From Synaphobranchus kaupii (Eukaryota; Chordata; Actinopteri; Anguilliformes; Synaphobranchidae), in NCBI GenBank assembly GCA_029718625.1, contig CM056395.1:19060309-19124308 (forward strand): DNA of 64,000 nucleotides, given 5' to 3'. The notes beneath the pieces are model-generated. The model did no database searches and had not been told where the DNA came from. It worked only from the letters and a program-made list of their open reading frames with translations. The position numbers were made by a program, and so were the translations under genes. Position 1 is the first letter of the stretch. The number at the start of each line of letters is the position of its first letter. Below, in pieces: positions 1 to 64,000 of this stretch.

Positions 1-1
1 A

Positions 2-3000
2 CCCAGTACAAATGCAGTCCCCACTACAACTTCAGCCCCAACTACAACTGCAGCCCCCACTACAACTGCAGCCCGCACTACAACTGCAGCTCCCACTACA
101 ACAGCAGCCTCCACTACAACTGCAGCACCCACTACAACTGCAGCAACAACAACTGCAGCCCCAACTACAACTTCAGCCCCCACTACAACTGCAGCCCACA
201 CTACAACAGCAGCCCCCACTATAACTGCAGCCCTCACTACAACTTCAGCCCCCACTACAACTGCAGCAACAATAACTGCAGCCCCAACTACAACTGCAGC
301 TCCCACTACAACTTCAGCACCCACTACAACAGCAGTTCCCACTACAACTGCAGCCCCCACTACAACAGCAGCCTCCACTGCAACTGCAGCACCCACTACA
401 CCTGCAACACCAACAACAACTGCAGCCCCCACTACAACTTCAGCACCCACTACAACAGCAGTTCCCACTACAACTGCAGCCCCCACTACAACAGCAGCCC
501 CCACTACAACAGCAGCCTCCACTGCAACTGCAGCCCCCACTACAACTGCAGCACCAACAACTGCAGCCCTCACTACAACTTCAGGCCCCACTACAACTTC
601 AGCACCCACTACAACAGCAGCTCCCACTGCAAGAGCAGCCTCCACTACAACAGCAACCCCCACTACAACAGCATCTCCCACTACAACTGCAGCACCAACC
701 ACAACTCCAGCTCCGACAACAACACCAGTTCTCACTACAACTGCAGCCCCAACTACGTCTGCAACACCCACTACAACTGCAGCCCCGACAACAACCCCAG
801 TTCCCACTACCACTGCAGCACCCAGTACAACTGCAGTCCCCACTACAACTTCAGCCCCAACTACAACTGCAGCCCCCACTACAACTGCAGCCCCCACTAC
901 AACTGCAGCTCCCACTACAACAGCAGCCTCCACTACAACTGCAGCACCCACTACAACTGCAGCAACAACAACTGGAGCACCAACTACAACTTCAGCCCCC
1001 ACTACAACTGCAGCACCCACTACAACTTCAGCCCCCGTGACAACTGCAGCTCCCACTACATCAGCAGCCTCCAATACAACTGTAGCCCACACTACAACAG
1101 CAGCCCCAACTACAACTGCAGCCCCCGCTACAACTTCAGCACCCACTACAACAGCAGTTCCCACTACAACTGCAGCCCCCACTACAACAGCAGCCTCCAC
1201 TGCAACTGCAGCACCCACTACACCTGCAGCACCAACAACAACTGCAGCCCCCACTACAACTTCAGCACCCAGTACAACAGCAGTTCCCACTACAACTGCA
1301 GCCCCCACTACAACAGCAGCCCCCACTACAACAGCAGCCTCCACTGCAACTGCAGCCCCCACTACAACTGCAGCACCAACAACAACTGCAGCCCTCACTA
1401 CAACTTCAGCTCCCACTACAACTTCAGCACCCACTACAACAGCAGCTCCTACTTCAAGAGCAGCCTCCACTACAACAGCAACCCCCACTACAACAGCATC
1501 TCCCACTACAACTGCAGTACCAACCACAACTCCAGCTCCGACAACAACACCATTTCTCACTACAACTGCAGCCCCAACTACATCTGCAGCACCCACTACA
1601 ACTGCAGCCCCGACAACAACCCCAGTTCCCACTACCACTGCAGCACCCAGTACAACTGTAGTCCCCACTACAACTTCAGCCCCAACTACAACTGCAGCCC
1701 CCACTACAACTGCAGCCCCCACTACAACTGCAGCTCCCACTACAACAGCAGCCTCCACTACAACTGCAGCACCCACTACAACTGCAGCAACAACAACTGC
1801 AGCCCCAACTACAACTTCAGCCCCCACTACAACTGCAGCACCCACTACAACTTCAGCCCCCGTGACAACTGCAGCACCCAGTTCAACTGCAGTCCCCACT
1901 ACAACTTCAGCCCCAACTACAACTGCAGCCCCCACTACAACTGCAGCCCCCACTACAACTGCAGCTCCCACTACAACAGCAGCCTCCACTACAACTGCAG
2001 CACCCACTACAACTGCAGCAACAACAACTGCAGCCCCAACTACAACTTCAACCCCCACTACAACTGCAGCCCACACTACAACAGCAGCCCCCACTATAAC
2101 TGCAGCCCTCACTACAACTTCAGCCCCCACTACAACTGCAGCACCAACCACAACTCCAGCTCCGACAACAACACCAGTTCTCACTACAACTGCAGCCCCA
2201 ACTACGTCTGCAGCACCCACTACAACTGCAGCCCCGACAACAACCCCAGTTCCCACTACCACTGCAGCACCCAGTACAACTGCAGTCCCCACTACAACTT
2301 CAGCCCCAACTACAACTGCAGCCCCCACTACAACTGCAGCCCGCACTACAACTGCAGCTCCCACTACAACAGCAGCCTCCACTACAACTGCAGCACCCAC
2401 TACAACTGCAGCAACAACAACTGCAGCCCCAACTACAACTTCAGCCCCCAGTACAACTGCAGCCCACACTACAACAGCAGCCCCCACTATAACTGCAGCC
2501 CTCACTACAACTTCAGCCCCCACTACAACTGCAGCAACAATAACTGCAGCCCCAACTACAACTGCAGCTCCCACTACAACTTCAGCACCCACTACAACAG
2601 CAGTTCCCACTACAACTGCAGCGCCCACTACAACAGCAGCCTCCACTGCAACTGCAGCACCCACTACACCTGCAACACCAACAACAACTGCAGCTCCCAC
2701 TACAACTTCAGCACCCACTACAACAGCAGTTCCCACTACAACTGCAGCCCCCACTACAACAGCAGCCTCCACTGCAACTGCAGCACCCGCTACACCTGCA
2801 ACACCAACAACAACTGCAGCCCCCACTACAACTTCAGCACCCACTACAACAGCAGTTCCCACTACAACTGCAGCCCCCACTACAACAGCAGCCTCCACTG
2901 CAACTGCAGCACCCACTACACCTGCAGCACCAACAACAACTGCAGCCCCCACTAAAACTTCAGCACCCAATACAACAGCAGTTCCCACTACAACTGCAGC

Positions 3001-6000
3001 CCCCACTACAACAGCAGCCCCCACTACAACAGCAGCCTCCACTGCAACTGCAGCTCCCACTACAACTGCAGCACCAACAACAACTGCAGCCCTCACTACA
3101 ACTTCAGCCCCCACTACAACTTCAGCACCCACTACAACAGCAGCTCCCACTTCAAGAGCAGCCTCCACTACAACAGCAACCCCCACTACAACAGCATCTC
3201 CCACTACAACTGCAGCACCAAGCACAACTCCAGCTCCGACAACAACACCAGTTCTCACTACAACTGCAGCCGCAACTACGTCTGCAACACCCACTACAAC
3301 TGCAGCCCCGACAACAACCCCAGTTCCCACTACCACTGCAGCACCCAGTACAACTGCAGTCCCCACTACAACTTCAGCCCCAACTACAACTGCAGCCCCC
3401 ACTACAACTGCAGCCCCCACTACAACTGCAGCTCCCACTACAACAGCAGCCTCCACTACAACTGCAGCACCGACTACAACTGCAGCAACAACAACTGCAG
3501 CCCCAACTACAACTTCAGCCCCCACTACAACTGCAGCCTCCACTACAACTGCAGCCCACACTACAACAGCAGCCCCCACTACAACTGCAGCACCCACTAC
3601 AACTTCAGCCCCCATGACAACTGCAGCACCCAGTACAACTGCAGTCCCCACTACAACTTCAGCCCCAACTACAACTGCAGCCCCCACTACAACTGCAGCC
3701 CCCACTACAACTGCAGCTCCCACTACAACAGCAGCCTCCACTACAACTGCAGCACCCACTACAACTGCAGCAACAACAACTGCAGCCCCAACTACAACTT
3801 CAGCCCCCACTACAACTGCAGCCCACACTACAACAGCAGCCCCCACTATAACTGCAGCCCTCACTACAACTTCAGCCCCCACTACAACTTCAGCACCCAC
3901 TACAACAGCAGCTCCCACTTCAAGAGCAGCCTCCACTACAACAGCAGCCCACACTACAACAGCAACCCCCACTACAACAGTATCTCCCACTCCAACTGCA
4001 GCACCAACCACAACTCCAGCTCCGACAACAACACCAGTTCTCACTACAACTGCAGCCCCAACTACGTCTGCAGCACCCACTACAACTGCAGCCCAGACAA
4101 CAACCCCAGTTCCCACTACCACTGCAGCACCCAGTACAACTGCAGTCCCCACTACAACTTCAGCCCCAACAACAACTGCAGCCCCCACTACAACTGCAGC
4201 CCCCACTACAACTGCAGCTCCCACTACAACAGCAGCCTCCACTACAACTGCAGCACCCACTACAACTGCAGCAACAACAACTGCAGCCCCAACTACAACT
4301 TCAGCCCCCACTACAACTGCAGCACCCAGTACAACTGCAGTCCCCACTACAACTTCAGCCCCAACTACAACTGCAGCCCCCACTACAACTGCAGCCTCCA
4401 CTACAACTGCAGCTCCCACTACAACAGCAGCCTCCACTACAACTGCAGCACCCACTACAACTGCAGCAACAACAACTGCAGCCCCAACTACAACTTCAGC
4501 CCCCACTACAACTTCAGCACCCACTACAACAGCAGTTCCCACTACAACTGCAGCCCCCACTACAACAGCAGCCACCACTGCAACTGCAGCACCCACTACA
4601 CCGGCAGCACCAACAACAACTGCAGCCCCCACTACAACTTCAGCACCCACTACAACAGCAGTTCCCACTACAACTGCAGCCCCCACTACAACAGCAGCCC
4701 CCACTACAACAGCAGCCTCCACTGCAACTGCAGCCCCCACTACAACTGCAGCACCAACAACAACTGCAGCCCTCACTACAACTTCAGCTCCAACTACAAC
4801 TTCAGCACCCACTACAACTGCAGCCCCCACTACAACTGCAGCTCCCACTACAACAGCAGCCTCCACTACAACTGCAGCACCCACTACAACTGCAGCAACA
4901 ACAACTGCAGCCCCAACTACGACTTCAGCCCCCACTACAACTGCAGCACCCACTACAACTTCAGCCCCCGTGACAACTGCAGCTCCCACTACATCAGCAG
5001 CCTCCACTACAACTGCAGCCCACACTACAACAGCAGCCCCAAATACAACTGCAGCCCCCACTACAACTTCAGCACCCACTACAACAGCAGTTCCCACTAC
5101 AACTGCAGCCCCCACTACAACAGCAGCCTCCACTGCAACTGCAGCACCCACTACACCTGCAGCACCAACAACAACTGCAGCCCACACTACAACTTCAGCA
5201 CCCAGTACAACTGCAGCCCCCACTACAACAGCAGCCTCCACTACAACAGCAGCCTCCACTGCAACTGCAGCCCCCACTACAACTGCAGCAACAACAACTG
5301 CAGCCCCCACTACAACTTCAGCACTCACTACAACAGCAGTTCCCACTACAACTGCAGCCCCCACTACAACAGCAGCTCCCACTTCAAGAGCAGCCTCCAC
5401 TACAACAGCAACCCCCACTACAACAGCATCTCCCACTACAACTGCAGCACCAACCACAACTCCAGCTCCGACAACAACACCAGTTCTCACTACAACTGCA
5501 GCCGCAACTACGTCTGCAACACCCACTACAACTGCAGCCCCGACAACAACCCCAGTTCCCACTACCACTGCAGCACCCAGTACAACTGCAGTCCCCACTA
5601 CAACTTCAGCCCCAACTACAACTGCAGCCCCCACTACAACTGCAGCCCCCACTACAACTGCAGCTCCCACTACAACAGCAGCCTCCACTACAACTGCAGC
5701 ACCGACTACAACTGCAGCAACAACAACTGCAGCCCCAACTACAACTTCAGCCCCCACTACAACTGCAGCCTCCACTACAACTGCAGCCCACACTACAACA
5801 GCAGCCCCCACTACAACTGCAGCACCCACTACAACTTCAGCCCCCATGACAACTGCAGCACCCAGTACAACTGCAGTCCCCACTACAACTTCAGCCCCAA
5901 CTACAACTGCAGCCCCCACTACAACTGCAGCCCCCACTACAACTGCAGCTCCCACTACAACAGCAGCCTCCACTACAACTGCAGCACCCACTACAACTGC

Positions 6001-9000
6001 AGCAACAACAACTGCAGCCCCAACTACAACTTCAGCCCCCACTACAACTGCAGCCCACACTACAACAGCAGCCCCCACTATAACTGCAGCCCTCACTACA
6101 ACTTCAGCCCCCACTACAACTTCAGCACCCACTACAACAGCAGCTCCCACTTCAAGAGCAGCCTCCACTACAACAGCAGCCCACACTACAACAGCAACCC
6201 CCACTACAACAGCATCTCCCACTCCAACTGCAGCACCAACCACAACTCCAGCTCCGACAACAACACCAGTTCTCACTACAACTGCAGCCCCAACTACGTC
6301 TGCAGCACCCACTACAACTGCAGCCCCGACAACAACCCCAGTTCCCACTACCACTGCAGCACCCAGTACAACTGCAGTCCCCACTACAACTTCAGCCCCA
6401 ACAACAACTGCAGCCCCCACTACAACTGCAGCCCCCACTACAACTGCAGCTCCCACTACAACAGCAGCCTCCACTACAACTGCAGCACCCACTACAACTG
6501 CAGCAACAACAACTGCAGCCCCAACTACAACTTCAGCCCCCACTACAACTGCAGCACCCAGTACAACTGCAGTCCCCACTACAACTTCAGCCCCAACTAC
6601 AACTGCAGCCCCCACTACAACTGCAGCCTCCACTACAACTGCAGCTCCCACTACAACAGCAGCCTCCACTACAACTGCAGCACCCACTACAACTGCAGCA
6701 ACAACAACTGCAGCCCCAACTACAACTTCAGCCCCCACTACAACTTCAGCACCCACTACAACAGCAGTTCCCACTACAACTGCAGCCCCCACTACAACAG
6801 CAGCCACCACTGCAACTGCAGCACCCACTACACCGGCAGCACCAACAACAACTGCAGCCCCCACTACAACTTCAGCACCCACTACAACAGCAGTTCCCAA
6901 TACAACTGCAGCCCCCACTACAACAGCAGCCCCCACTACAACAGCAGCCTCCACTGCAACTGCAGCCCCCACTACAACTGCAGCACCAACAACAACTGCA
7001 GCCCTCACTACAACTTCAGCTCCAACTACAACTTCAGCACCCACTACAACTGCAGCCCCCACTACAACTGCAGCTCCCACTACAACAGCAGCCTCCACTA
7101 CAACAGCAGCACCCACTACAACTGCAGCAACAACAACTGCAGCCCCAACTACGACTTCAGCCCCCACTACAACTGCAGCACCCACTACAACTTCAGCCCC
7201 CGTGACAACTGCAGCTCCCACTACATCAGCAGCCTCCACTACAACTGCAGCCCACACTACAACAGCAGCCCCAAATACAACTGCAGCCCCCACTACAACT
7301 TCAGCACCCACTACAACAGCAGTTCCCACTACAACTGCAGCCCCCACTACAACAGCAGCCTCCACTGCAACTGCAGCACCCACTACACCTGCAGCACCAA
7401 CAACAACTGCAGCCCCCACTACAACTTCAGCACCCAGTACAACTGCAGCCCCCACTACAACAGCAGCCTCCACTACAACAGCAGCCTCCACTGCAACTGC
7501 AGCCCCCACTACAACTGCAGCAACAACAACTGCAGCCCCCACTACAACTTCAGCACTCACTACAACAGCAGTTCCCACTACAACTGCAGCCCCCACTACA
7601 ACAGCAGCCTCCACTGCAACTGCAGCACCCACTACAACTGCAGCAACAACAACTGCAGCCCCAACTACAACTTCAGCCCCAACTACAACTGCAGCCCCCA
7701 CTACAACTGCAGCCCCCACTACAACTGCAGCCCCCACTACAACTGCAGCTCCCACTACAACAGCAGCCTCCACTACAACTGCAGCACCCACTACAACTGC
7801 AGCAACAACAACTGCAGCCCCAACTACAACTTCAGCCCCCACTACAACTGCAGCCCACACTACAACAGCAGCCCCCACTATAACTGCAGCCCTCACTACA
7901 ACTTCAGCCCCCACTACAACTTCAGCACCCACTACAACAGCAGCTCCCACTTCAAGAGCAGCCTCCACTACAACAGCAGCCCACACTACAACAGCAACCC
8001 CCACTACAACAGCATCTCCCACTCCAACTGCAGCACCAACCACAACTCCAGCTCCGACAACAACACCAGTTCTCACTACAACTGCAGCCCAAACTACGTT
8101 TGCAGCACCCACTACAACTGCAGCCCCGACAACAACCCCAGTTCCCACTACCACTGCAACACCCAGTACAACTGCAGTCCCCACTACAACTTCAGCCCCA
8201 ACTACAACAGCAGCCCTCACTACAACTGCAGCCCCCACTACAACTGCAGCTCCCACTACAACAGCAGCCTCCACTACAACTGCAGCACCCACTACAACTG
8301 CAGGAACAACAACTGCAGCCCCAACTACAACTTCAGCCCACACTACAACAGCAGCCCCCACTATAACTGCAGCCCTCACTACAACTTCAGCCCCCACTAC
8401 AACTTCAGCACCCACTACAACAGCAGCTCCCACTTCAAGAGCAGCCTCCACTACAACAGCAGCCCACACTACAACAGCAACCCCCACTACAACAGCATCT
8501 CCCACTACAACTGCAGCACCAACCACAACTCCAGCTCCGACAACAACCCCAGTTCCCACTACCACTGCAGCACCCAGTACAACTGCAGTCCCCACTACAA
8601 CTTCAGCCCCAACTACAACTGCAGCCCCCACTACAACTGCAGCCCCCACTACAACTGCAGCTCCCACTACAACAGCAGCCTCCAATACAACTGCAGCACC
8701 CACTACAACTTCAGCCCCTGTGACAACTGCAGCACCCAGTACAAGTGCAGCCTCCACTACAACTGCAGCCCACGCTACAACACCAGCCCCCACTATAATT
8801 GCAGCCCTCACTACAACTTCAGCCCCCACTACAACTTCAGCACCCACTACAACAGCAGCTCCCACTTCAAGAGCAGCCTCCACTACAACAGCAACCCCCA
8901 CTACAACAGCATCTCCCACTACAACTGCAGCACCAACCACAACTCCAGCTCCGACAACAACACCAGTTCTCACTACAAATGCAGCCCCAACTACGTCTGC

Positions 9001-12000
9001 AGCACCCACTACAACTGCAGCCCCGACAACAACCCCAGTTCCCACTACCACTGCAGCACCCAGTACAACTGAAGTCCCCACTACAACTTCAGCCCCAACT
9101 ACAACTGCAGCCCCCACTACAACTGCTGCCCCCACTACAACCGCAGCTTCCACTACAACTGCAGCACCCACTACAACTGCAGCAACAATAACTGCAGCCC
9201 CAACTACAACTGCAGCTCCCACTACAACTTCAGCACCCACTACAACAGCAGTTCCCACTACAACTGCAGCCCCCACTACAACAGCAGCCTCCACTGCAAC
9301 TGCAGCACCCACTACACCTGCTGCACCAACAACAACTGCAGCCCCCACTAAAACTTCAGCACCCAATACAACAGCAGTTCCCACTACAACTGCAGCCCCC
9401 ACTACAACAGCAGCCCCCACTACAACAGCAGCCTCCACTGCAACTGCAGCTCCCACTACAACTGCAGCACCAACAACAACTGCAGCCCTCACTACAACTT
9501 CAGCCCCCACTACAACTTCAGCACCCACTACAACAGCAGCTCCCACTTCAAGAGCAGCCTCCACTACAACAGCAACCCCCACTACAACAGCATCTCCCAC
9601 TACAACTGCAGCACCAACCACAACTCCAGCTCCGACAACAACACCAGTTCTCACTACAACTGCAGCCGCAACTACGTCTGCAACACCCACTACAACTGCA
9701 GCCCCGACAACAACCCCAGTTCCCACTACCACTGCAGCACCCAGTACAACTGCAGTCCCCACTACAACTTCAGCCCCAACTACAACTGCAGCCCCCACTA
9801 CAACTGCAGCCCCCACTACAACTGCAGCTCCCACTACAACAGCAGCCTCCACTACAACTGCAGCACCCACTACAACTGCAGCAACAACTGCAGCCCCAAC
9901 TACGACTTCAGCCCCCACTACAACTGCAGCACCCACTACAACTTCAGCCCCCGTGACAACTGCAGCTCCCACTACATCAGCAGCCTCCACTACAACTGCA
10001 GCCCACACTACAACAGCAGCCCCAACTACAACTGCAGCCCCCACTACAACTTCAGCACCCACTACAACAGCAGTTCCCACTACAACTGCAGCCCCCACTA
10101 CAACAGCAGCCTCCACTGCAACTGCAGCACCCACTACACCTGCAGCACCAAAAACAACTGCAGCCCCCACTACAACTTCAGCACCCAGTACAACTGCAGC
10201 CCCCACTACAACAGCAGCCTCCACTACAACAGCAGCCTCCACTGCAACTGCAGCACCCAGTACAACTGCAGTCCCCACTACAACTTCAGCCCCAACTACA
10301 ACTGCAGCCCCCACTACAACTGCAGCCCCCACTACAACTGCAGCTCCCACTACAACAGCAGCCTCCACTACAACTGCAGCACCCACTACAACTGCAGCAA
10401 CAACAACTGCAGCCCCAACTACGACTTCAGCCCCCACTACAACTGCAGCCCACACTACAACAGCAGCCCCCACTACAACTGCAGCACCCACTACAACTTC
10501 AGCCCCCGTGACAACTGCAGCACCCACTGCAACTGCAGCCCCCACTACAACAGCAGCCTCCACTGCAACTGCAGCCCCCACTACAACTGCAGCACCAACA
10601 ACAACTGCAGCCCTCACTACAACTTCAGCCCCCACTACAACTTCAGCACCCACAACAACAGCAGCTCCCACTTCAAGAGCAGCCTCCACTACAACAGCAG
10701 CCCACACTACAACAGCAACCCCCACTACAACAGCATCTCCCACTACAACTGCAGCACCAACCACAACTCCAGCTCCGACAACAACACCAGTTCTCACTAC
10801 AACTACAGCCCCAACTACGTCTGCAGCACCCACTAAAACTGCAGCCCCCACTACAACTGCAGCTCCCACTACAACAGCAGCCTCCACTACAACTGCAGCA
10901 CCAACTACAACTGCAGCAACAACAACTGCAGCCCCAACTACAACTTCAGCCCCCACTACAACTGCAGCCCACACTACAACAGCAGCCCCCACTATAACTG
11001 CAGCCCTCACTACAACTTCAGCCCCAACTACAACTGCAGGAACAACAACTGCAGTCCCCACTACAACTGCAGCCCCCACTACAACAGCAGCCTCCACTGC
11101 ACCTGCAGCTCCCACTACAACAGCAGCCTCCACTACAACTGCAGCCTCCACTACAACTGCAGCACCAACTACAACTGCAGCAACAACAACTGCAGCCCCA
11201 ACTACAACTTCAGCCCCCACTACAACTGCAGCCCCCACTACAACTGCAGCTCCCACTACAACAGCAGCCTCCACTACAACTGCAGCACCAACTACAACTG
11301 CAGCAACAACAACTGCAGCCCCAACTACAACTTCAGCCCCCACTACAACTGCAGCCCACACTACAACAGCAGCCCCCACTATAACTGCAGCCCTCACTAC
11401 AACTTCAGCCCCAACTACAACTGCAGGAACAACAACTGCAGTCCCCACTACAACTGCAGCCCCCACTACAACAGCAGCCTCCACTGCAACTGCAGCACCC
11501 ACAACACCTGCAGCACCAACAACAACAGCAGCCCCCACTACAACTTCAGCACCCAGTACAACAGCAGTCCCCACTACAACTTCAGCCCCAACTACAACTG
11601 CAGCCCCCACTATAACTGCAGCCCCCACTACAACTGCAGCTCCCACTACAACAGCAGCCTCCACTACAACTGCAGCACCCACTACAACTGCAGCAACAAC
11701 AACTGCAGCCCCAACTACAACTTCAGCCCCCACTACAACTGCAGCACCCACTACAACTTCAGCCCCCGTGACAACTGCAGCTCCCACTACATCAGCAGCC
11801 TCCACTACAACTGCAGCCCACACTACAATAGCAGCCCCCACTATAACTGCAGCCCTCACTACAACAGCAGCTCCCACTTCAAGAGCAGCCTCCACTACAA
11901 CAGCAGCCCACACTACAACAGCATCTCCCACTACAACTGCAGCACCAACCACAACTCCAGCTCCGACAACAACTGCAGCCCCCACTACAACTGCAGTCCC

Positions 12001-15000
12001 CACTACAACTGCAGTCCCCACTACAACTTCAGCCTCCACTACAACTGCAGCCCACACTACAACTGCAGCCCCAACTACAACCCCAGTTCCCACTACCACT
12101 GCAGCACCCAGTACAACTGCAGTCCCCACTACAACTTCAGCCTCCACTACAACTGCAGCCCACACTACAACAGCAGCCCCAACTACAACTGCAGCCCCCA
12201 CTACAACTTCAGCACCCACTACAACAGCAGTTCCCACTACAACTGCAGCCCCCACTACAACAGCAGCCTCCACTGCAACTGCAGCACCCACTACACCTGC
12301 AGCATCAACAACAACTGCAGCCCCCACTACAACTGCAGCACCAACAACAACTGCAGCCTTCACTACAACTTCAGCACCCACAACAACACCAGTTCTCACT
12401 ACAACTGCAGCCCCAACTACGTCTGCAGCACCCACTACAACTGCAGCCCTGACAACAACCGCAGTTCCCACTACCACTGCAGCACCCAGTACAACTGCAG
12501 TCCCCACTACAACTTCAGCCTCCACTACAACTGCAGCCCACACTACAACAGCAGCCCCAACTACAACTGCAGCCCCCACTACAACTGCAGTCCCCACTAC
12601 AACTTCAGCCCCCACTACAACTGCAGCACCCACTACAACTTCAGCCCCCGTGACAACTGCAGCTCCCACTACATCAGCAGCCTCCACTACAACTGCAGCC
12701 CACACTACAATAGCAGCCCCCACTATAACTGCAGCCCTCACTACAACAGCAGCTCCCACTTCAAGAGCAGCCTCCACTACAACAGCAGCCCACACTACAA
12801 CAGCATCTCCCACTACAACTGCAGCACCAACCACAACTCCAGCTCCGACAACAACTGCAGCCCCCACTACAACTGCAGTCCCCACTACAACTGCAGTCCC
12901 CACTACAACTTCAGCCTCCACTACAACTGCAGCCCACACTACAACTGCAGCCCCAACTACAACCCCAGTTCCCACTACCACTGCAGCACCCAGTACAACT
13001 GCAGTCCCCACTACAACTTCAGCCTCCACTACAACTGCAGCCCACACTACAACAGCAGCCCCAACTACAACTGCAGCCCCCACTACAACTTCAGCACCCA
13101 CTACAACAGCAGTTCCCACTACAACTGCAGCCCCCACTACAACAGCAGCCTCCACTGCAACTGCAGCACCCACTACACCTGCAGCATCAACAACAACTGC
13201 AGCCCCCACTACAACTGCAGCACCAACAACAACTGCAGCCTTCACTACAACTTCAGCACCCACAACAACACCAGTTCTCACTACAACTGCAGCCCCAACT
13301 ACGTCTGCAGCACCCACTACAACTGCAGCCCTGACAACAACCGCAGTTCCCACTACCACTGCAGCACCCAGTACAACTGCAGTCCCCACTACAACTTCAG
13401 CCTCCACTACAACTGCAGCCCACACTACAACAGCAGCCCCAACTACAACTGCAGCCCCCACTACAACTGCAGTCCCCACTACAACAGCAGCCTCCACTGC
13501 AACTGCAGCACCCACTACACCTGCAGCATCAACAACAACTGCAGCCCCCACTACAACTTCAGCACCCAGTACAACAGCAGTTCCCACTACAACTGCAGCC
13601 CCCACTACATCAGCAGCCCCCACTACAACAGCAGCCTCCACTGCAACTGCAGCCCCCACTACAACTGCAGCACCAACAACAACTGCAGCCCTCACTACAA
13701 CTTCAGCCCCCACTACAACTTCAGCACCCACTACAACAGCAGCTCCCACTTCAAGAGCAGCCTCCACTACAACAGCAACCCCCACTACAACAGCATCTCC
13801 CACTACAACTGCAGCACCAACCACAACTCCAGCTCCGACAACAACACCAGTTCTCACTACAACTGCAGCCGCAACTACGTCTGCAACACCCACTACAACT
13901 GCAGCCCCGACAACAACCCCAGTTCCCACTACCACTGCAGCACCCAGTACAACTGCAGTCCCCACTACAACTTCAGCCCCAACTACAACTGCAGCCCCCA
14001 CTACAACTGCAGCCCCCACTACAACTGCAGCTCCCACTACAACAGCAGCCTCCACTACAACTGCAGCACCCACTACAACTGCAGCAACAACAACTGCAGC
14101 CCCAACTACGACTTCAGCCCCCACTACAACTGCAGCCCACACTACAACAGCAGCCCCCACTACAACTGCAGCACCCACTACAACTTCAGCCCCCGTGACA
14201 ACTGCAGCACCCACTGCAACTGCAGCCCCCACTACAACAGCAGCCTCCACTGCAACTGCAGCCCCCACTACAACTGCAGCACCAACAACAACTGCAGCCC
14301 TCACTACAACTTCAGCCCCCACTACAACTTCAGCACCCACAACAACAGCAGCTCCCACTTCAAGAGCAGCCTCCACTACAACAGCAGCCCACACTACAAC
14401 AGCAACCCCCACTACAACAGCATCTCCCACTACAACTGCAGCACCAACCACAACTCCAGCTCCGACAACAACACCAGTTCTCACTACAACTACAGCCCCA
14501 ACTACGTCTGCAGCACCCACTAAAACTGCAGCCCCCACTACAACTGCAGCTCCCACTACAACAGCAGCCTCCACTACAACTGCAGCACCAACTACAACTG
14601 CAGCAACAACAACTGCAGCCCCAACTACAACTTCAGCCCCCACTACAACTGCAGCCCACACTACAACAGCAGCCCCCACTATAACTGCAGCCCTCACTAC
14701 AACAGCAGCCTCCACTGCACCTGCAGCTCCCACTACAACAGCAGCCTCCACTACAACTGCAGCCTCCACTACAACTGCAGCACCAACTACAACGGCAGCA
14801 ACAACAACTGCAGCCCCAACTACAACTTCAGCCCCCACTACAACTGCAGCCCCCACTACAACTGCAGCTCCCACTACAACAGCAGCCTCCACTACAACTG
14901 CAGCACCAACTACAACTGCAGCAACAACAACTGCAGCCCCAACTACAACTTCAGCCCCCACTACAACTGCAGCCCACACTACAACAGCAGCCCCCACTAT

Positions 15001-18000
15001 AACTGCAGCCCTCACTACAACTTCAGCCCCAACTACAACTGCAGGAACAACAACTGCAGTCCCCACTACAACTGCAGCCCCCACTACAACAGCAGCCTCC
15101 ACTGCAACTGCAGCACCCACAACACCTGCAGCACCAACAACAACAGCAGCCCCCACTACAACAGCAGCCTCCACTGCAACTGCAGCCCCCACTACAACTG
15201 CAGCACCAACAACAACTGCAGCCCTCACTACAACTTCAGCCCCCACTACAACTTCAGCACCCACTACAACAGCAGCTCCCACTTCAAGAGCAGCCTCCAC
15301 TACAACAGCAACCCCCACTACAACAGCATCTCCCACTACAACTGCAGCACCAACCACAACTCCAGCTCCGACAACAACACCAGTTCTCACTACAAATGCA
15401 GCCCCAACTACGTCTGCAGCACCCACTACAACTGCAGCCCCGACAACAACCCCAGTTCCCACTACCACTGCAGCACCCAGTACAACTGAAGTCCCCACTA
15501 CAACTTCAGCCCCAACTACAACTGCAGCCCCCACTACAACTGCTGCCCCCACTACAACCGCAGCTTCCACTACAACTGCAGCACCCACTACAACTGCAGC
15601 AACAATAACTGCAGCCCCAACTACAACTGCAGCTCCCACTACAACTTCAGCACCCACTACAACAGCAGTTCCCACTACAACTGCAGCCCCCACTACAACA
15701 GCAGCCTCCACTGCAACTGCAGCACCCACTACACCTGCAGCACCAACAACAACTGCAGCCCCCACTAAAACTTCAGCACCCAATACAACAGCAGTTCCCA
15801 CTACAACTTCAGCCCCCACTACAACAGCAGCCCCCACTACAACAGCAGCCTCCACTGCAACTGCAGCTCCCACTACAACTGCAGCACCAACAACAACTGC
15901 AGCCCTCACTACAACTTCAGCCCCCACTACAACTTCAGCACCCACTACAACAGCAGCTCCCACTTCAAGAGCAGCCTCCACTACAACAGCAACCCCCACT
16001 ACAACAGCATCTCCCACTACAACTGCAGCACCAACCACAACTCCAGCTCCGACAACAACACCAGTTCTCACTACAACTGCAGCCGCAACTACGTCTGCAA
16101 CACCCACTACAACTGCAGCCCCGACAACAACCCCAGTTCCCACTACCACTGCAGCACCCAGTACAACTGCAGTCCCCACTACAACTTCAGCCCCAACTAC
16201 AACTGCAGCCCCCACTACAACTGCAGCCCCCACTACAACTGCAGCTCCCACTACAACAGCAGCCTCCACTACAACTGCAGCACCCACTACAACTGCAGCA
16301 ACAACTGCAGCCCCAACTACGACTTCAGCCCCCACTACAACTGCAGCACCCACTACAACTTCAGCCCCCGTGACAACTGCAGCTCCCACTACATCAGCAG
16401 CCTCCACTACAACTGCAGCCCACACTACAACAGCAGCCCCAACTACAACTGCAGCCCCCACTACAACTTCAGCACCCACTACAACAGCAGTTCCCACTAC
16501 AACTGCAGCCCCCACTACAACAGCAGCCTCCACTGCAACTGCAGCACCCACTACACCTGCAGCACCAAAAACAACTGCAGCCCCCACTACAACTTCAGCA
16601 CCCAGTACAACTGCAGCCCCCACTACAACAGCAGCCTCCACTACAACAGCAGCCTCCACTGCAACTGCAGCACCCAGTACAACTGCAGTCCCCACTACAA
16701 CTTCAGCCCCAACTACAACTGCAGCCCCCACTACAACTGCAGCCCCCACTACAACTGCAGCTCCCACTACAACAGCAGCCTCCACTACAACTGCAGCACC
16801 CACTACGACTTCAGCCCCCACAACAACTGCAGCCCCAACTACGACTTCAGCCCCCACTACAACTGCAGCCCACACTACAACAGCAGCCCCCACTACAACT
16901 GCAGCACCCACTACAACTTCAGCCCCCGTGACAACTGCAGCACCCACTGCAACTGCAGCCCCCACTACAACAGCAGCCTCCACTGCAACTGCAGCCCCCA
17001 CTACAACTGCAGCACCAACAACAACTGCAGCCCTCACTACAACTTCAGCCCCCACTACAACTTCAGCACCCACAACAACAGCAGCTCCCACTTCAAGAGC
17101 AGCCTCCACTACAACAGCAGCCCACACTACAACAGCAACCCCCACTACAACAGCATCTCCCACTACAACTGCAGCACCAACCACAACTCCAGCTCCGACA
17201 ACAACACCAGTTCTCACTACAACTACAGCCCCAACTACGTCTGCAGCACCCACTAAAACTGCAGCCCCCACTACAACTGCAGCTCCCACTACAACAGCAG
17301 CCTCCACTACAACTGCAGCACCAACTACAACTGCAGCAACAACAACTGCAGCCCCAACTACAACTTCAGCCCCCACTACAACTGCAGCCCACACTACAAC
17401 AGCAGCCCCCACTATAACTGCAGCCCTCACTACAACTTCAGCCCCAACTACAACTGCAGGAACAACAACTGCAGTCCCCACTACAACTGCAGCCCCCACT
17501 ACAACAGCAGCCTCCACTGCACCTGCAGCTCCCACTACAACAGCAGCCTCCACTACAACTGCAGCCTCCACTACAACTGCAGCACCAACTACAACTGCAG
17601 CAACAACAACTGCAGCCCCAACTACAACTTCAGCCCCCACTACAACTGCAGCCCCCACTACAACTGCAGCTCCCACTACAACAGCAGCCTCCACTACACC
17701 TGCAGCACCAACTACAACTGCAGCAACAACAACTGCAGCCCCAACTACAACTTCAGCCCCCACTACAACTGCAGCCCACACTACAACAGCAGCCCCCACT
17801 ATAACTGCAGCCCTCACTACAACTTCAGCCCCAACTACAACTGCAGGAACAACAACTGCAGTCCCCACTACAACTGCAGCCCCCACTACAACAGCAGCCT
17901 CCACTGCAACTGCAGCACCCACAACACCTGCAGCACCAACAACAACAGCAGCCCCCACTACAACTTCAGCACCCAGTACAACAGCAGTCCCCACTACAAC

Positions 18001-45000: not shown

Positions 45001-48000
45001 CCTCACTACAACTTCAGCCCCCACTACAACTGCAGCCCCCACTACAACAGCAGCCCCCACTACAACAGCAGCCTCCACTGTAACTGCAGCCCCCACTACA
45101 ACTGCAGCACCAACAACAACTGCAGCCCTCACTACAACTTCAGCCCCCACTACAACTTCAGCCCCCACTACAAATTCAGCACCCACAACAACACCAGTTC
45201 TCACTACAACTGCAGCCCCAACTACGTCTGCAGCACCCACTACAACTGCAGCCCTGACAACAACCCCAGTTCCCACTACCACTGCAGCACCCAGTACAAC
45301 TGCAGTCCCCACTACAACTTCAGCCCCCACTACAACTGCAGCACCCACTACAACTTCAGCCCCCGTGACAACTGCAGCACCCAGTACAACTGCAGTCCCC
45401 ACTACAACTTCAGCCCCAACTACAACTGCAGCCCCCACTACAACTGCAGCACCCACTACAACTGCAGCAACAACTGCAGCCCCAACTACAACTTCAGCCC
45501 CCACTACAACTGCAGCCCACACTACAACAGCAGCCCCCACTATAACTGCAGCCCTCACTACAACTTCAGCCCCCACTACAACTTCAGCACCCACTACAAC
45601 AGCAGCTCCCACTTCAAGAGCAGCCTCCACTACAACAGCAGCCCACAATACAACAGCAACCCCCACAACAACAGCATCTCCCACTCCAACTGCAGCACCA
45701 ACCACAACTCCAGCTCCGACAACAACACCAGTTCTCACTACAACTGCAGCCCCAACTACGTCTGCAGCACCCACTACAACTGCAGCCCCGACCACAACCC
45801 CAGTTCCCACTACCACTGCAGCACCCAGTACAACTGCAGTCCCCACTACGACTTCAGCCCCAACTACAACTGCAGCCCCCACTACAACTGCAGCCCCCAC
45901 TACAACTGCAGCTCCCACTACAACAGCAGCCTACACTACAACTGCAGCACCCACTACAACTGCAGCAACAACAACTGCAGCCCCAACTACAACTGCAGCC
46001 CCCACTACAACTTCAGCACCCACTACAACAGCAGTTCCCACTACAACTGCAGCCCCCACTACAACAGCAGCCTCCACTGCAACTGCAACACCCACTACAC
46101 CTGCAGCACCAACAACAACTGCAGCCCCCACTACAACTTCAGCACCCAGTATAACAGCAGTTCCCACTACAACTGCAGCCCCCACTACAACAGCAGCCCT
46201 CACTACAACAGCAGCCTCCACTGCAACTGCAGCCCCCACTACAACTGCAGCACCAACAACAACTGCAGCCCTCACTACAACTTCAGCTCCCACTACAACT
46301 TCAGCACCCACTACAACAGCAGCTCCCACTTCAAGAGCAGCCTCCACTACAACAGCAGCCCACACTACAACAGCAACCCCCACTACAACAGCATCTCCCA
46401 CTACAACTGCAGCACAAACCACAACTCCAGCTCCGACAACAACACCAGTTCTCACTACAACTGCAGCCCCAACTACGTCTGCAGCACCCACTACAACTGC
46501 AGCCCCGACAACAACCCCAGTTCCCACTACCACTGCAGCACCCAGTACAACTGCAGTCCCCACTACAACTTCAGCCCCAACAACAACTGCAGCCCCCACT
46601 ACAACTGCAGCCCCCATTACAACTGCAGCTCCCACTACAACAGCAGCCTCCACTACAACTGCAGCACCCACTACAACTGCAGCAACAACAACTGCAGCCC
46701 CAACTACAACTTCAGCCCCCACTACAACTGCAGCAACAACAACTGCAGCCCCAACTACAACTTCAGCACCCACTACAACAGCAGTTCCCACTACAACTGC
46801 AGCCCCCACTACAACAGCAGCCTCCACTGCAACTGCAGCACCCACTACACCTGCAGCACCAACAACAACTGCAGCCCCCACTACAACTTCAGCACCCACT
46901 ACAACAGCAGTTCCCACTACAACTGCAGCCCCCACTACAACTGCAGCCCCCACTACAACAGCAGCCCCCACTACAACAGCAGCCTCCACTGCAACTGCAG
47001 CACCCACTACACCTGCAGCATCAACAACAACTGCAGCCCCCACTACAACTTCAGCACCCAGTACAACAGCAGTTCCCACTACAACTGCAGCCCCCACTAC
47101 AACAGCAGCCTCCACTGTAACTGCAGCCCCCACTACAACTGCAGCACCAACAACAACTGCAGCCCTCACTACAACTTCAGCCCCAACTACAAATTCAGCA
47201 CCCACAACAAAACCAGTTCTCACTACAACTGCAGCCCCAACTACGTCTGCAGCACCCACTACAACTGCAGCCCTGACAACAACCCCAGTTCCCACTACCA
47301 CTGCAGCACCCAGTACAACTGCAGTCCCCACTACAACTTCAGCCTCCACTACAACTGCAGCCCACACTACAACAGCAGCCCCAACTACAACTGCAGCCCC
47401 CACTACAACTGCAGCCCCCACTACAACAGCAGCCTCCACTGCAACTGCAGCACCCACTACACCTGCAGCATCAACAACAACTGCAGCCCCCACTACAACT
47501 TCAGCACCCAGTACAACAGCAGTTCCCACTACAACTGCAGCCCCGACTACAACAGCAGCCCCCACTACAACAGCAGCCTCCACTGCAACTGCAGCCCCCA
47601 CTACAACTGCAGCACCAACAACAACTGCAGCCCTCACTACAACTTCAGCCCCCACTACAACTTCAGCACCCACTACAACAGCAGCTCCCACTTCAAGAGC
47701 AGCCTCCACTACAACAGCAGCCCACACTACAACAGCAACCCCCACTACAAAAGCATCTCCCACTACAACTGCAGCACCAAGCACAACTCCAGCTCCGACA
47801 ACAACACCAGTTCTCAGTACAACTGCAGCCCCAACTACATCTGCAGCACCCACTACAACTGCAGCCCCGACAACAACCCCAGTTCCCACTACCACTGCAG
47901 CACCCAGTACAACTGCAGTCCCCACTACAACTTCAGCCCCAACTACAACTGCAGCCCCCACTACAACTGCAGCCCGCACTACAACTGCAGCTCCCACTAC

Positions 48001-51000
48001 AACAGCAGCCTCCACTACAACTGCAGCACCCACTACAACTGCAGCAACAACAACTGCAGCCCCAACTACAACTTCAGCCCCCACTACAACTGCAGCCCAC
48101 ACTACAACAGCAGCCCCCACTATAACTGCAGCCCTCACTACAACTTCAGCCCCCACTACAACTTCAGCACCCACTACAACAGCAGCTCCCACTTCAAGAG
48201 CAGCCCCCACTATAACTGCAGCCCTCACTACAACTTCAGCCCCCACTACAACTTCAGCACCCACTACAACAGCAGCTCCCACTTCAAGAGCAGCCTCCAC
48301 TACAACAGCAGCCCACACTACAACAGCAACCCCCACTACAACAGTATCTCCCACTACAACTGCAGCACCAACCACAACTCCAGCTCCGACAACAACACCA
48401 GTTCCCACTACAACTGCAGCCCCAACTACGTCTGCAGCACCCACTACAACTGCAGCCCCGACAACAACCCCAGTTCCCACTACCACTGCAGCACCCAGTA
48501 CAACTGCAGTCCCTACTACAACTTCAGCCCCAACTACAACTGCAGCCCCCACTACAACTGCAGCCCCCACTACAACTGCAGCTCCCACTACAACAGCAGC
48601 CTCCACTACAACTGCAGCACCCACTACAACTGCAGCAACAACAACTGCAGCCCCAACTACAACTTCAGCCCCCACTACAACTGCAGCACCCACTACAACT
48701 TCAGCCCCTGTGACAACTGCAGCACCCAGTACAAGTGCAGCCTCCACTACAACTGCAGCCCACGCTACAACAGCAGCCCCCACTATAACTGCAGCCCTCA
48801 CTACAACTTCAGCCCCCACTACAACTTCAGCACCCACTACAACAGCAGCTCCCACTTCAAGAGCAGCCTCCACTACAACAGCAGCCCACACTACAACAGC
48901 AACCCCCACTACAACAGCATCTCCCACTACAACTGCAGCAACAACCACAACTCCAGCTCCGACAACAACACCAGTTCTCACTACAAATGCAGCCCCAACT
49001 ACGTCTGCAGCACCCACTACAACTGCAGCCCCGACAACAACCCCAGTTCCCACTACCACTGCAGCACCCAGTACAACTGAAGTCCCCACTACAACTTCAG
49101 CCCCAACTACAACTGCAGCCCCCACTACAACTGCAGCCCCCACTACAACTGCAGCACCAACCACAACTCCAGCCCCGACAACAACCCCAGTTCCCACTAC
49201 CACTGCAGCACCCAGTACAACTGAAGTCCCCACTACAACTTCAGCCCCAACTACAACTGCAGCACCCACTACAACAGCAGCCTCCACTGCAACTGCAGCT
49301 CCCACTACAACTGCAGCACCAACAACAACTGCAGCCCTCACTACAACTTCAGCCCCCACTACAACTTCAGCACCCACTAAAACAGCAGCTCCAACTTCAA
49401 GAGCAGCTTCCACTACAACAGCAACCCCCACTACAACAGCATCTCCCACTACAACTGCAGCACCAACCACAACTCCAGCTCCGACAACAACACCAGTTCT
49501 CACTACAACTGCAGCCCCAACTACGTCTGCAACACCCACTACAACTGCAGCCCCGACAACAACCCCAGTTCCCACTACCACTGCAGCACCCAGTACAACT
49601 GCAGTCCCCACTACAACTTCAGCCCCAACTACAACTGCAGCCCCCACTACAACTACAGCCCCCACTACAACTGCAGCTCCCACTACAACAGCAGCCTCCA
49701 CTACAACTGCAGCACCCACTACAACTGCAGCAACAACAACTGCAGCCCCAACTACAACTTCAGCCCCCACTACAACTGCAGCACCCACTGCAACTGCAGC
49801 CCCCACTACAACTGCAGCAACAACAACTGCAGCCCCCACTACAACTTCAGCACCCACTACAACAGCAGTTCCCACTACAACTGCAGCCCCCACTACAACA
49901 GCAGCCTCCACTGCAACTGCAGCACCCACTACAACTGCAGCAACAACAACTGCAGCCCCAACTACAACTTCAGCCCCCACTACAACTGCAGCCTCCACTA
50001 CAACTGCAGCCCACACTACAACAGCAGCCCCCACTACAACTGCAGCACCCACTACAACTTCAGCCCCCGTGACAACTGCAGCACCCAGTACAACTGCAGC
50101 CCCCACTACAACTGCAGCACCCACTACAACTGCAGCAACAACAACTGCAGCCCCAACTACAACTTCAGCCCCCACTACAACTGCAGCCCACACTACAACA
50201 GCAGCCCCCACTATAACTGCAGCCCTCACTACAACTTCAGCCCCCACTACAACTTCAGCACCCACTACAACAGCAGCTCCCACTTCAAGAGCAGCCTCCA
50301 CTACAACAGCAGCCCACACTACAACAGCAACCCCCACTACAACAGCATCTCCCACTCCAACTGCAGCACCAACCACAACTCCAGCTCCGACAACAACACC
50401 AGTTCTCACTACAACTGCAGCCCCAACTACGTCTGCAGCACCCACTACAACTGCAGCCCCGACAACAACCCCAGGTCCCACTACCACTGCAGCACCCAGT
50501 ACAACTGCAGTCCCCACTACAACTTCAGCCCCAACTACAACTGCAGCCCCCACTACAACTGCAGCCCCCACTACAACTGCAGCTCCCACTACAACAGCAG
50601 CCTACACTACAACTGCAGCACCCACTACAACTGCAGCAACAACAACTGCAGCCCCAACTACAACTGCAGCCCCGACTACAACTTCAGCACCCACTACAAC
50701 AGCAGTTCCCACTACAACTGCAGCCCCCACTACAACAGCAGCCTCCACTGCAACTGCAACACCCACTACACCTGCAGCACCAACAACAACTGCAGCCCCC
50801 ACTACAACTTCAGCACCCAGTACAACAGCAGTTCCCACTACAACTGCAGCCCCCACTACAACAGCAGCCCTCACTACAACAGCAGCCTCCACTGCAACTG
50901 CAGCCCCCACTACAACTGCAGCACCAACAACAACTGCAGCCCTCACTACAACTTCAGCTCCCACTACAACTTCAGCACCCACTACAACAGCAGCTCCCAC

Positions 51001-57000: not shown

Positions 57001-60000
57001 TACAACTGCAGCCCCCACTACAACTGCAGCCCCCACTACAACTGCAGCTCCCACTACAACAGCAGCCTCCACTACAACTGCAGCACCCACTACAACTGCA
57101 GCAACAACAACTGCAGCCCCAACTACAACTTCAGCCCCCACTACAACTGCAGCACCCACTACAACTTCAGCCCCTGTGACAACTGCAGCACCCAGTACAA
57201 GTGCAGCCTCCACTACAACTGCAGCCCACGCTACAACAGCAGCCCCCACTATAACTGCAGCCCTCACTAAAACTTCAGCCCCCACTACAACTTCAGCACC
57301 CACTACAACAGCAGCTCCCACTTCAAGAGCAGCCTCCACTACAACAGCAGCCCACACTACAACAGCAACCCCCACTACAACAGCATCTCCCACTACAACT
57401 GCAGCAACAACCACAACTCCAGCTCCGACAACAACACCAGTTCTCACTACAAATGCAGCCCCAACTACGTCTGCAGCACCCACTACAACTGCAGCCCCGA
57501 CAACAACCCAAGTTCCCACTACCACTGCAGCACCCAGTACAACTGAAGTCCCCACTACAACTTCAGCCCCAACTACAACTGCAGCCCCCACTACAACTGC
57601 AGCCCCCACTACAACTGCAGCACCAACCACAACTCCAGCTCCGACAACAACACCAATTCTCACTACAAATGCAGCCCCAACTACGTCTGCAGCACCCACT
57701 ACAACTGCAGCCCCGACAACAACCCCAGTTCCCACTACCACTGCAGCACCCAGTACAACTGAAGTCCCCACTACAACTTCAGCCCCAACTACAACTGCAG
57801 CCCCCACTACAACTGCAGCACCCACTACAACTGCAGCAACAATAACTGCAGCCCCAACTACAACTGCAGGTCCCACTACAACTTCAGCACCCACTACAAC
57901 AGCAGTTCCCACTACAACTGCAGCCCCCACTACAACAGCAGCCTCCACTGCAACTGCAGCACCCACTACACCTGCAGCACCAACAACAACTGCAGCCCCC
58001 ACTACAACTTCAGCACCCACTACAACTTCAGCACCCACTAAAACAGCAGCTCCAACTTCAAGAGCAGCTTCCACTACAACAGCAACCCCCACTACAACAG
58101 CATCTCCCACTACAACTGCAGCACCAACCACAACTCCAGCTCCGACAACAACACCAGTTCTCACTACAACTGCAGCCCCAACTACGTCTGCAACACCCAC
58201 TACAACTGCAGCCCCGACAACAACCCCAGTTCCCACTACCACTGCAGCACCCAGTACAACTGCAGTCCCCACTACAACTTCAGCCCCAACTACAACTGCA
58301 GCCCCCACTACAACTACAGCCCCCACTACAACTGCAGCTCCCACTACAACAGCAGCCTCCACTACAACTGCAGCACCCACTACAACTGCAGCAACAACAA
58401 CTGCAGCCCCAACTACAACTTCAGCCCCCACTACAACTTCAGCACCCACTAAAACAGCAGCTCCAACTTCAAGAGCAGCTTCCACTACAACAGCAACCCC
58501 CACTACAACAGCATCTCCCACTACAACTGCAGCACCAACCACAACTCCAGCTCCGACAACAACACCAGTTCTCACTACAACTGCAGCCCCAACTACGTCT
58601 GCAACACCCACTACAACTGCAGCCCCGACAACAACCCCAGTTCCCACTACCACTGCAGCACCCAGTACAACTGCAGTCCCCACTACAACTTCAGCCCCAA
58701 CAACAACTGCAGCCCCCACTACAACTGCAGCTCCCACTACAACAGCAGCCTACACTACAACTGCAGCACCCACTACAACTGCAGCAACAACAACTGCAGC
58801 CCCAACTACAACTGCAGCCCCGACTACAACTTCAGCACCCACTACAACAGCAGTTCCCACTACAACTGCAGCCCCCACTACAACAGCAGCCTCCACTGCA
58901 ACTGCAACACCAACCACAACTCCAGCTCCGACAACAACACCAGTTCTCACTACAAATGCAGCCCCAACTACGTCTGCAGCACCCACTACAACTGCAGCCC
59001 CGACAACAACCCCAGTTCCCACTACCACTGCAGCACCCAGTACAACTGCAGTCCCCACTACAACTTCAGCCCCAACTACAACTGCAGCCCCCACTACAAC
59101 TGCAGCACCCACTACAACTGCAGCAACAATAACTGCAGCCCCAACTACAACTGCAGGTCCCACTACAACTTCAGCACCCACTACAACAGCAGTTCCCACT
59201 ACAACTGCAGCCCCCACTACAACAGCAGCCTCCACTGCAACTGCAGCACCCACTACACCTGCAGCACCAACAACAACTGCAGCCCTCACTACAACTTCAG
59301 CCCCCACTACAACTTCAGCACCCACTACAACAGCAGCTCCCACTTCAAGAGCAGCCTCCACTACAACAGCAGCCCACACTACAACAGCAACCCCCACTAC
59401 AACAGCATCTCCCACTACAACTGCAGCACCAACCGCAACTCCAGCTCCGACAACAACACCAGTTCTCAGTACAACTGCAGCCCCAACTACATCTGCAGCA
59501 CCCACTACAACTGCAGCCCCGACAACAACCCCAGTTCCCACTACCACTGCAGCACCCAGTACAACTGCAGTCCCCACTACAACTTCAGCCCCAACTACAA
59601 CTGCAGCCCCCACTACAACTGCAGCCCACACTACAACTGCAGCTCCCACTACAACAGCAGCCTCCACTACAACTGCAGCACCCACTACAACTGCAGCAAC
59701 AACAACTGCAGCCCCAACTACAACTTCAGCCCCCACTACAACTGCAGCCCACACTACAACAGCAGCCCCCACTATAACTGCAGCCCTCACTACAACTTCA
59801 GCCCCCACTACAACTTCAGCACCCACTACAACAGCAGCTCCCACTTCAAGAGCAGCCCCCACTATAACTGCAGCCCTCACTACAACTTCAGCCCCCACTA
59901 CAACTTCAGCACCCACTACAACAGCAGCTCCCACTTCAAGAGCAGCCTCCACTACAACAGCAGCCCACACTACAACAGCAACCCCCACTACAACAGTATC

Positions 60001-63000
60001 TCCCACTACAACTGCAGCACCAACCACAACTCCAGCTCCGACAACAACACCAGTTCCCACTACAACTGCAGCCCCAACTACGTCTGCAGCACCCACTACA
60101 ACTGCAGCCCCGACAACAACCCCAGTTCCCACTACCACTGCAGCACCCAGTACAACTGCAGTCCCCACTACAACTTCAGCCCCAACTACAACTGCAGCCC
60201 CCACTACAACTGCAGCCCCCACTACAACTGCAGCTCCCACTACAACAGCAGCCTCCACTACAACTGCAGCACCCACTACAACTGCAGCAACAACAACTGC
60301 AGCCCCAACTACAACTTCAGCCCCCACTACAACTGCAGCACCCACTACAACTTCAGCCCCTGTGACAACTGCAGCACCCAGTACAAGTGCAGCCTCCACT
60401 ACAACTGCAGCCCACGCTACAACAGCAGCCCCCACTATAACTGCAGCCCTCACTAAAACTTCAGCCCCCACTACAACTTCAGCACCCACTACAACAGCAG
60501 CTCCCACTTCAAGAGCAGCCTCCACTACAACAGCAGCCCACACTACAACAGCAACCCCCACTACAACAGCATCTCCCACTACAACTGCAGCAACAACCAC
60601 AACTCCAGCTCCGACAACAACACCAGTTCTCACTACAAATGCAGCCCCAACTACGTCTGCAGCACCCACTACAACTGCAGCCCCGACAACAACCCAAGTT
60701 CCCACTACCACTGCAGCACCCAGTACAACTGAAGTCCCCACTACAACTTCAGCCCCAACTACAACTGCAGCCCCCACTACAACTGCAGCCCCCACTACAA
60801 CTGCAGCACCAACCACAACTCCAGCTCCGACAACAACACCAATTCTCACTACAAATGCAGCCCCAACTACGTCTGCAGCACCCACTACAACTGCAGCCCC
60901 GACAACAACCCCAGTTCCCACTACCACTGCAGCACCCAGTACAACTGAAGTCCCCACTACAACTTCAGCCCCAACTACAACTGCAGCCCCCACTACAACT
61001 GCAGCACCCACTACAACTGCAGCAACAATAACTGCAGCCCCAACTACAACTGCAGGTCCCACTACAACTTCAGCACCCACTACAACAGCAGTTCCCACTA
61101 CAACTGCAGCCCCCACTACAACAGCAGCCTCCACTGCAACTGCAGCACCCACTACACCTGCAGCACCAACAACAACTGCAGCCCCCACTACAACTTCAGC
61201 ACCCACTACAACTTCAGCACCCACTAAAACAGCAGCTCCAACTTCAAGAGCAGCTTCCACTACAACAGCAACCCCCACTACAACAGCATCTCCCACTACA
61301 ACTGCAGCACCAACCACAACTCCAGCTCCGACAACAACACCAGTTCTCACTACAACTGCAGCCCCAACTACGTCTGCAACACCCACTACAACTGCAGCCC
61401 CGACAACAACCCCAGTTCCCACTACCACTGCAGCACCCAGTACAACTGCAGTCCCCACTACAACTTCAGCCCCAACTACAACTGCAGCCCCCACTACAAC
61501 TACAGCCCCCACTACAACTGCAGCTCCCACTACAACAGCAGCCTCCACTACAACTGCAGCACCCACTACAACTGCAGCAACAACAACTGCAGCCCCAACT
61601 ACAACTTCAGCCCCCACTACAACTTCAGCACCCACTAAAACAGCAGCTCCAACTTCAAGAGCAGCTTCCACTACAACAGCAACCCCCACTACAACAGCAT
61701 CTCCCACTACAACTGCAGCACCAACCACAACTCCAGCTCCGACAACAACACCAGTTCTCACTACAACTGCAGCCCCAACTACGTCTGCAACACCCACTAC
61801 AACTGCAGCCCCGACAACAACCCCAGTTCCCACTACCACTGCAGCACCCAGTACAACTGCAGTCCCCACTACAACTTCAGCCCCAACAACAACTGCAGCC
61901 CCCACTACAACTGCAGCTCCCACTACAACAGCAGCCTACACTACAACTGCAGCACCCACTACAACTGCAGCAACAACAACTGCAGCCCCAACTACAACTG
62001 CAGCCCCGACTACAACTTCAGCACCCACTACAACAGCAGTTCCCACTACAACTGCAGCCCCCACTACAACAGCAGCCTCCACTGCAACTGCAACACCAAC
62101 CACAACTCCAGCTCCGACAACAACACCAGTTCTCACTACAAATGCAGCCCCAACTACGTCTGCAGCACCCACTACAACTGCAGCCCCGACAACAACCCCA
62201 GTTCCCACTACCACTGCAGCACCCAGTACAACTGCAGTCCCCACTACAACTTCAGCCCCAACTACAACTGCAGCCCCCACTACAACTGCAGCACCCACTA
62301 CAACTGCAGCAACAATAACTGCAGCCCCAACTACAACTGCAGGTCCCACTACAACTTCAGCACCCACTACAACAGCAGTTCCCACTACAACTGCAGCCCC
62401 CACTACAACAGCAGCCTCCACTGCAACTGCAGCACCCACTACACCTGCAGCACCAACAACAACTGCAGCCCCCACTACAACTTCAGCGCCCACTACAACT
62501 TCAGCACCCACTACAACTGCAGCCCCCACTACAACAGAAGCCCCCACTACAACTGCAGCCCCGACAACAACCCCAGTTCCCACTACCACTGCAGCACCCA
62601 GTACAACTGCAGTCCCCACTACAACTTCAGCCCCAACTACAACTGCAGCCCCCACTACAACTGCAGCCCCCACTACAACTGCAGCTCCCACTACAACAGC
62701 AGCCTCCACTACAACTGCAGCCCACACTACAACAGCAGCCCCAACTACAACTGCAGCCCCCACTACAACTTCAACACCCACTACAACAGCAGTTCCCACT
62801 ACAACTGCAGCCCCCACTACAACAGCAGCCTCCACTGCAACTGCAGCACCCACAACACCTGCAGCACCAACAACAACTGCAGCCCCCATTACAACTTCTG
62901 CACCCAGTACAACAGCAGTTCCCACTACAACTGCAGCCCCCACTACAACAGCAGCCTCCACTGCAACTGCAGCACCCACTACACCTGCAGCATCAACAAC

Positions 63001-64000: not shown

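Follow-up and report, generated by a model that had tools for sequence, protein, structure and literature searches.

The analysed DNA, a stretch of 64,000 bp hereafter called the window, is probably the interior of one giant exon coding for a mucin-type repeat region rich in Pro, Thr and Ser (PTS). This best reading, put forward in the earlier note as a giant mucin-like frame, is supported by the residue composition of the translated window (Thr+Ser 53%, Pro 14% and Ala 27%), by the absence of any net frameshift and by indels that come in multiples of three, whereas the selection that had been read from the missing stop codons is not supported, because copied repeat units are not independent and counting each change only once predicts 0.6–1.9 stops.

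The open frame and its tandem array

The forward frame starting at base 2 contains no stop among its 21,333 codons, stays open to base 64000 and exceeds both window ends (2..64000, + strand; six-frame stop count and repeat finding), which confirms the claim that one frame is open across the 64 kb. The translated stretch has a mass of 1.966 MDa and comprises 9,993 Thr, 3,003 Pro and 1,349 Ser among 21,333 residues (S+T 53.2%), with neither Cys nor Trp, two Met and one Asp; these Thr, Pro and Ser counts, together with the hexapeptide array described below, correspond to a PTS domain. No signal peptide, terminal domain or domain boundary was found within the window, where the array runs end to end, and no Pfam family was matched in the 2,000 of 21,333 residues scanned. 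Similarly, Rfam and tRNA scans of the window returned nothing useful, nor did the first 3,000 bases when used as a query against phages and plasmids. A protein-pattern search of viral and genome contigs matched 486 and 595 stretches, none of which was confirmed by tblastn, where low-complexity handling may penalise the query. A match to the spindle fibril protein 8zxl among PDB sequences (E 2.5e-5) was set aside as compositional, no stretch being significant alone, and RNA folding of one 300-nt stretch gave a z of −2.15, with 7 of 200 shuffles as good.

Tandem Repeats Finder recovered a single array from base 2 to 64000 (+ strand) with a period of 18 bp, 3,578 copies and 79% matches, and its consensus, CCCACTACAACTGCAGCC, is read as CCC ACT ACA ACT GCA GCC and encodes PTTTAA. 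The base composition is even along the whole window and no array edge is visible within it, since all twelve consecutive segments, each about 300 units long, contain 66–84 distinct unit types. When parsed by codons, the array comprises 3,579 units with lengths of 18, 15 and 12 bp, including 3,448 six-codon units (201 distinct types) and 124 five-codon units. The whole set holds just 211 different sequences, and 69 of these occur once; most units are therefore copies of copies, and independent mutations are few. Variant units number in the thousands, and the longest uninterrupted PTTTxx run in the window is eight. The 15-bp unit TTTAA, which lacks the Pro codon, accounts for 99 of the 124 five-codon units and is scattered along the array; it apparently goes back to a single old 3-bp deletion that was copied many times.

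Exact internal repeat pairs were also observed at a length threshold of 900. The segment 36502..43263 (+ strand, 6,762 bp) recurs exactly at 41857..48618 (+ strand), with a shift of 5,355 bp, a multiple of 3, and the two copies overlap, which marks them as a tandem duplication. Likewise, the 3,213-bp segment 56073..59285 (+ strand) recurs exactly at 59259..62471 (+ strand) with a shift of 3,186 bp, and seven more exact pairs measure 905–1,525 bp; the shifts of all nine pairs are multiples of 3, as would result from unequal exchange of units made of whole codons or from assembly duplication. The exact duplications at 36502–48618 and 56073–62471 represent either very recent unequal exchange or assembly duplication.

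Differential variation was observed among the columns of the 18-bp unit. In column 15, the third and synonymous position of GCA, 3,572 of 3,578 copies have A, and most other third positions vary more. This invariance is probably a founder effect, since the mutations counted in the column fall only mildly below expectation: with flanks of 12, 18 and 30 bases, its young events number 4 against 8.1 expected, 3 against 6.5 and 3 against 4.0, respectively, and a DNA-level constraint on the GCA/CTGCAG core was rejected. In addition, the CpG observed/expected ratio of this founder-dominated array is 0.11, which hints at a methylated genome, and the counted substitutions are rich in transversions (109 transversions, 72 transitions), an unusual bias for a vertebrate genome with CpG methylation; the ratio is accordingly given no taxonomic weight.

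Stops, substitutions and indels

The openness of the frame is largely inherited from the unit, since a head-to-tail series of consensus units has stops in only one of its six frames and a competing reverse stretch with the consensus AAVVVG stays open for 9,900 codons and runs off the window (1..29700, − strand; six-frame stop count, coordinates converted by hand). This open run lies in the reverse frame that has 10 stops; the other two reverse frames have 651 and 2,825, and the forward frames from base 1 and base 3 have 37 and 147, the former with an open run of up to 2,038 codons. The contexts that the earlier note had given for these stops are for the most part right. In the forward frame from base 1, ACT AAA and ACT AGA account for 27 of the 37 stops, while the other 10 are ACT GAA and had gone unmentioned; in that from base 3, ATA ACT accounts for 68 of the 147 and GTG ACA for 37. 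Every stop of the 10-stop reverse frame coincides with a forward-frame Tyr codon (10 of 10 at TAC), so that the placing of reverse stops at Tyr is right for this one frame, whereas TCA is responsible for all 651 stops of the second reverse frame and ACT ACN for most of the 2,825 stops of the third.

Each substitution was counted a single time for a given exact flanking context. Groups that had fewer than three sites or no majority base were dropped, which left 57,960 of the 64,000 positions at 18-base flanks. These flanks gave 181 events, comprising 54 synonymous, 127 missense and 0 nonsense changes, where the event spectrum predicts 55.3, 124.2 and 1.49, respectively. Flanks of 24–60 bases gave 148–80 events with 1.28–0.77 nonsense changes expected, and counts limited to alleles unique in the window gave 70–230 events with 0.6–1.87 expected across seven settings. 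TCA codons are indeed frequent (651) and none has become a stop, as had been pointed out, but with 0.6–1.9 nonsense changes expected over the entire frame the selection read from them was rejected. The stop-depletion check against a shuffled null that the earlier note had proposed loses its significance once copied units are collapsed: a column shuffle treating all 3,448 six-codon units as independent yields 8.4 stops, with none of 400 shuffles stop-free, whereas the 201 distinct six-codon types yield 1.8 stops, with 15% of 2,000 shuffles stop-free. Random placement of 181 substitutions likewise leaves the frame stop-free in 15% of 1,500 runs, falling to 0.5% with 500 substitutions, so that about 500 independent mutations is the number at which an absence of stops becomes telling. 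The zero stops observed here are unremarkable, and the absence of stops alone is no proof of a gene. More generally, a long open frame in a homogenised repeat whose unit is a multiple of three is weak evidence for a gene, because its copied units are not independent.

The residues themselves showed no excess of synonymous over missense changes, the pattern taken as the mark of a coding exon, although mucin repeats need not show one. The missense classes lie close to their expected numbers: Ser or Thr was lost in 50 events (49.5 expected) and Pro in 19 (21.2 expected), and Cys was gained in none (0.65 expected). Acidic residues were gained in 2 events against 8.0 expected, the most suggestive of about 12 categories but, given their number, a weak signal, and gains above expectation were observed for aromatic residues (5 against 2.1) and Asn (11 against 7.5). 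Moreover, the mutation events are distributed over the 18 columns roughly as base composition predicts. Individual residues look near unconstrained, and the substitutions look neutral.

Indels are the better evidence for coding and are suggestive in that sense, a signal weakened by copying and by trinucleotide slippage. A frame-blind nucleotide alignment to the unit gave 142 gap runs, 18 of which are 1, 2 or 4 bases long. Grouped within 20 bases, the gap runs form 130 clusters, all of which sum to 3 or 6 bases, so that the short runs belong to losses of whole codons and are not frameshifts. Most of these clusters are copies of the one old 15-bp unit (99 identical copies), and the independent indels are therefore few. 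When lengths of 1–17 were searched between exact flanks, 18-base flanks yielded seven indel contexts against 197 substitution keys, five of them 3 bp and two 15 bp long and thus all multiples of 3, and flanks of 24 and 30 bases yielded 5 of 5 and 4 of 4 frame-keeping contexts against 160 and 142 substitution keys, respectively. Trinucleotide slippage could account for several of the 3-bp indels, which fall within AAC-AAC-AAC runs. The whole-codon unit lengths of the codon parse were dropped as evidence, being true by construction in a parse made on codons.

The array contains 791 C5 and 628 C4 runs, which are expected to be slippage-prone, and despite these 1,419 runs no frameshift was found in the array among the 130 gap clusters and seven indel contexts. 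For 70–230 events, indel:substitution ratios of 0.05–0.225 and 67% of indels shifting the frame, 2.3–35 frameshifts are expected, an expectation that depends on the neutral indel rate, the ratios being assumptions; the value 0.225 is a simulation setting from work on the alignment of non-coding DNA (PMC1534069). The chance of observing zero frameshifts is 0.096 at the most lenient setting and 0.009 at 70 events with a ratio of 0.1, and it is lower with more events or higher ratios. Altogether, the indel pattern gives moderate support to a frame that is kept.

Competing readings and the proposed exon

Because the missing-stop argument for coding fails, a live though unlikely reading is that of a non-coding minisatellite in an intron or between genes, with an 18-bp unit that is stop-free by chance and was kept open by the spread of a few unit types. 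It accords with a consensus open in most frames, with the mere 211 unit types, with the 0.6–1.9 nonsense events expected, with missense and synonymous changes at their neutral ratio and with events that follow base composition across the 18 columns. Set against it are the zero net frameshifts in the 130 clusters and seven contexts, to be compared with 70–230 substitution events and 1,419 C4/C5 runs, a result that would still arise by chance about one time in ten at the most lenient setting. It is somewhat less probable that the length was inflated by assembly, the 5,355-bp and 3,186-bp tandem repeats being duplicated or mis-joined reads, a view compatible with the other readings. Repeats of 6,762 bp and 3,213 bp with zero mismatches are what it would produce, but recent unequal exchange yields the same picture, about 55 kb would remain without both extra copies, and recurring 1,200-mers start at only 24% of positions, so that long exact copying does not account for most of the array.

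The least probable of the alternatives is a giant Thr/Pro-rich protein other than a mucin, such as a cell-wall or cuticle protein, a peritrophin-like linker, a surface adhesin or a microbial surface protein. PTTTxx runs of 7–12 units do occur in proteins some of which carry PF00415, PF00150 or PF00722, which we take to be RCC1 and glycosyl-hydrolase families; the bacterial matches P0019, P0027, P0071 and P0073 have runs of 1–3, and the moth and spider matches (P0003 and P0041) carry PF01607, chitin-binding type 2. These matches are short or compositional, though, and a 10,000-residue query found none at E 0.001 among 451 scored candidates with lengths of 5,500–17,500. An exact 35-base array word, present 53 times in the window, was not found in the contig collections of prokaryotes and viruses, although the genome of the window itself may be missing from these.

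Under the favoured reading of a mucin-type exon, the array would be transcribed and translated in a host that is probably a eukaryote, and its thousands of PTTTAA-like hexapeptides would form a PTS domain without Cys, whose Thr and Ser residues would be densely O-glycosylated, making the chain stiff and hydrated, with terminal domains encoded beyond the window. The array would grow and shrink by unequal exchange, which keeps the frame automatically because the units are 18, 15 and 12 bp long, and selection would mainly remove frameshifts and rare stops; near-unconstrained residues are to be expected if only bulk composition matters. It is possible, though doubtful, that the array continues as a single exon well past both ends of the window, that its protein exceeds the longest MUC12 allele and may rank among the largest proteins coded by one exon in any organism, and that nothing but a rare purging of frameshifts holds the frame while residues drift neutrally.

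Comparison with known systems

Three protein searches, each of which scored just those candidates that had most words in common with the query, yielded 93 matches from 7,970 candidates, 8 from 1,833 and none from 451. No true homologue was found among the candidates scored, the matches inspected being short or compositional. Repeats of the PTTTxx or TTTAAP type, as in the window, were observed in a mucin-2-like protein of Acanthaster (P0094), a mucin-5AC-like protein of Anguilla (P0101) and an uncharacterized protein of Eleutherodactylus (P0002), with longest uninterrupted PTTTxx runs of 10, 5 and 1, respectively, against 8 in the window. P0094 carries PF00094, P0002 carries PF01390 and P0101 carries PF25313, of which the first two are presumably VWD and SEA. 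Judged from their sequences, these proteins appear alike in repeat type, which does not imply homology. PTTTxx runs are shared by mucin-named, unrelated and bacterial proteins, occurring in many unrelated proteins with up to 12 units, in some cases longer than in the mucin-named ones, and with 1–3 units in the bacterial ones; the motif thus looks convergent and identifies neither mucins nor membership of a family. Mucins are secreted or membrane-bound proteins with heavy O-glycosylation. They are defined by a PTS domain together with VWD or SEA domains (PMC1552070).

The window resembles coding minisatellites and VNTRs in that its 18-bp unit is a multiple of 3 and is homogenised by unequal exchange. 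For a coding array, 64 kb with no edge is a very large size. Should the array form one exon, it would offer a test case for the limits to the growth of coding minisatellites and for the target of selection in them, since its substitutions look neutral and frame-breaking indels are the one class that appears to be missing. The earlier suggestion that the protein may rank with the largest known is conditional, the window holding neither a domain boundary nor an array edge, and MUC12 is comparable in size. In human MUC12, a tethered mucin, a giant tandem-repeat region comparable in order of size is coded by one exon, and the predicted proteins vary with copy number from 4,677 to 23,080 aa (PMC13345508). 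Since MUC12 is predicted to reach such a length, scale alone is not new and, barring a far longer array, the exon would belong to a known kind. Unlike MUC12, the array here is built of the 18-bp PTTTAA unit, and its ends and any flanking domains lie outside the window. The MUC12 repeat unit is presumably longer than, and different from, the 18-bp unit described here.
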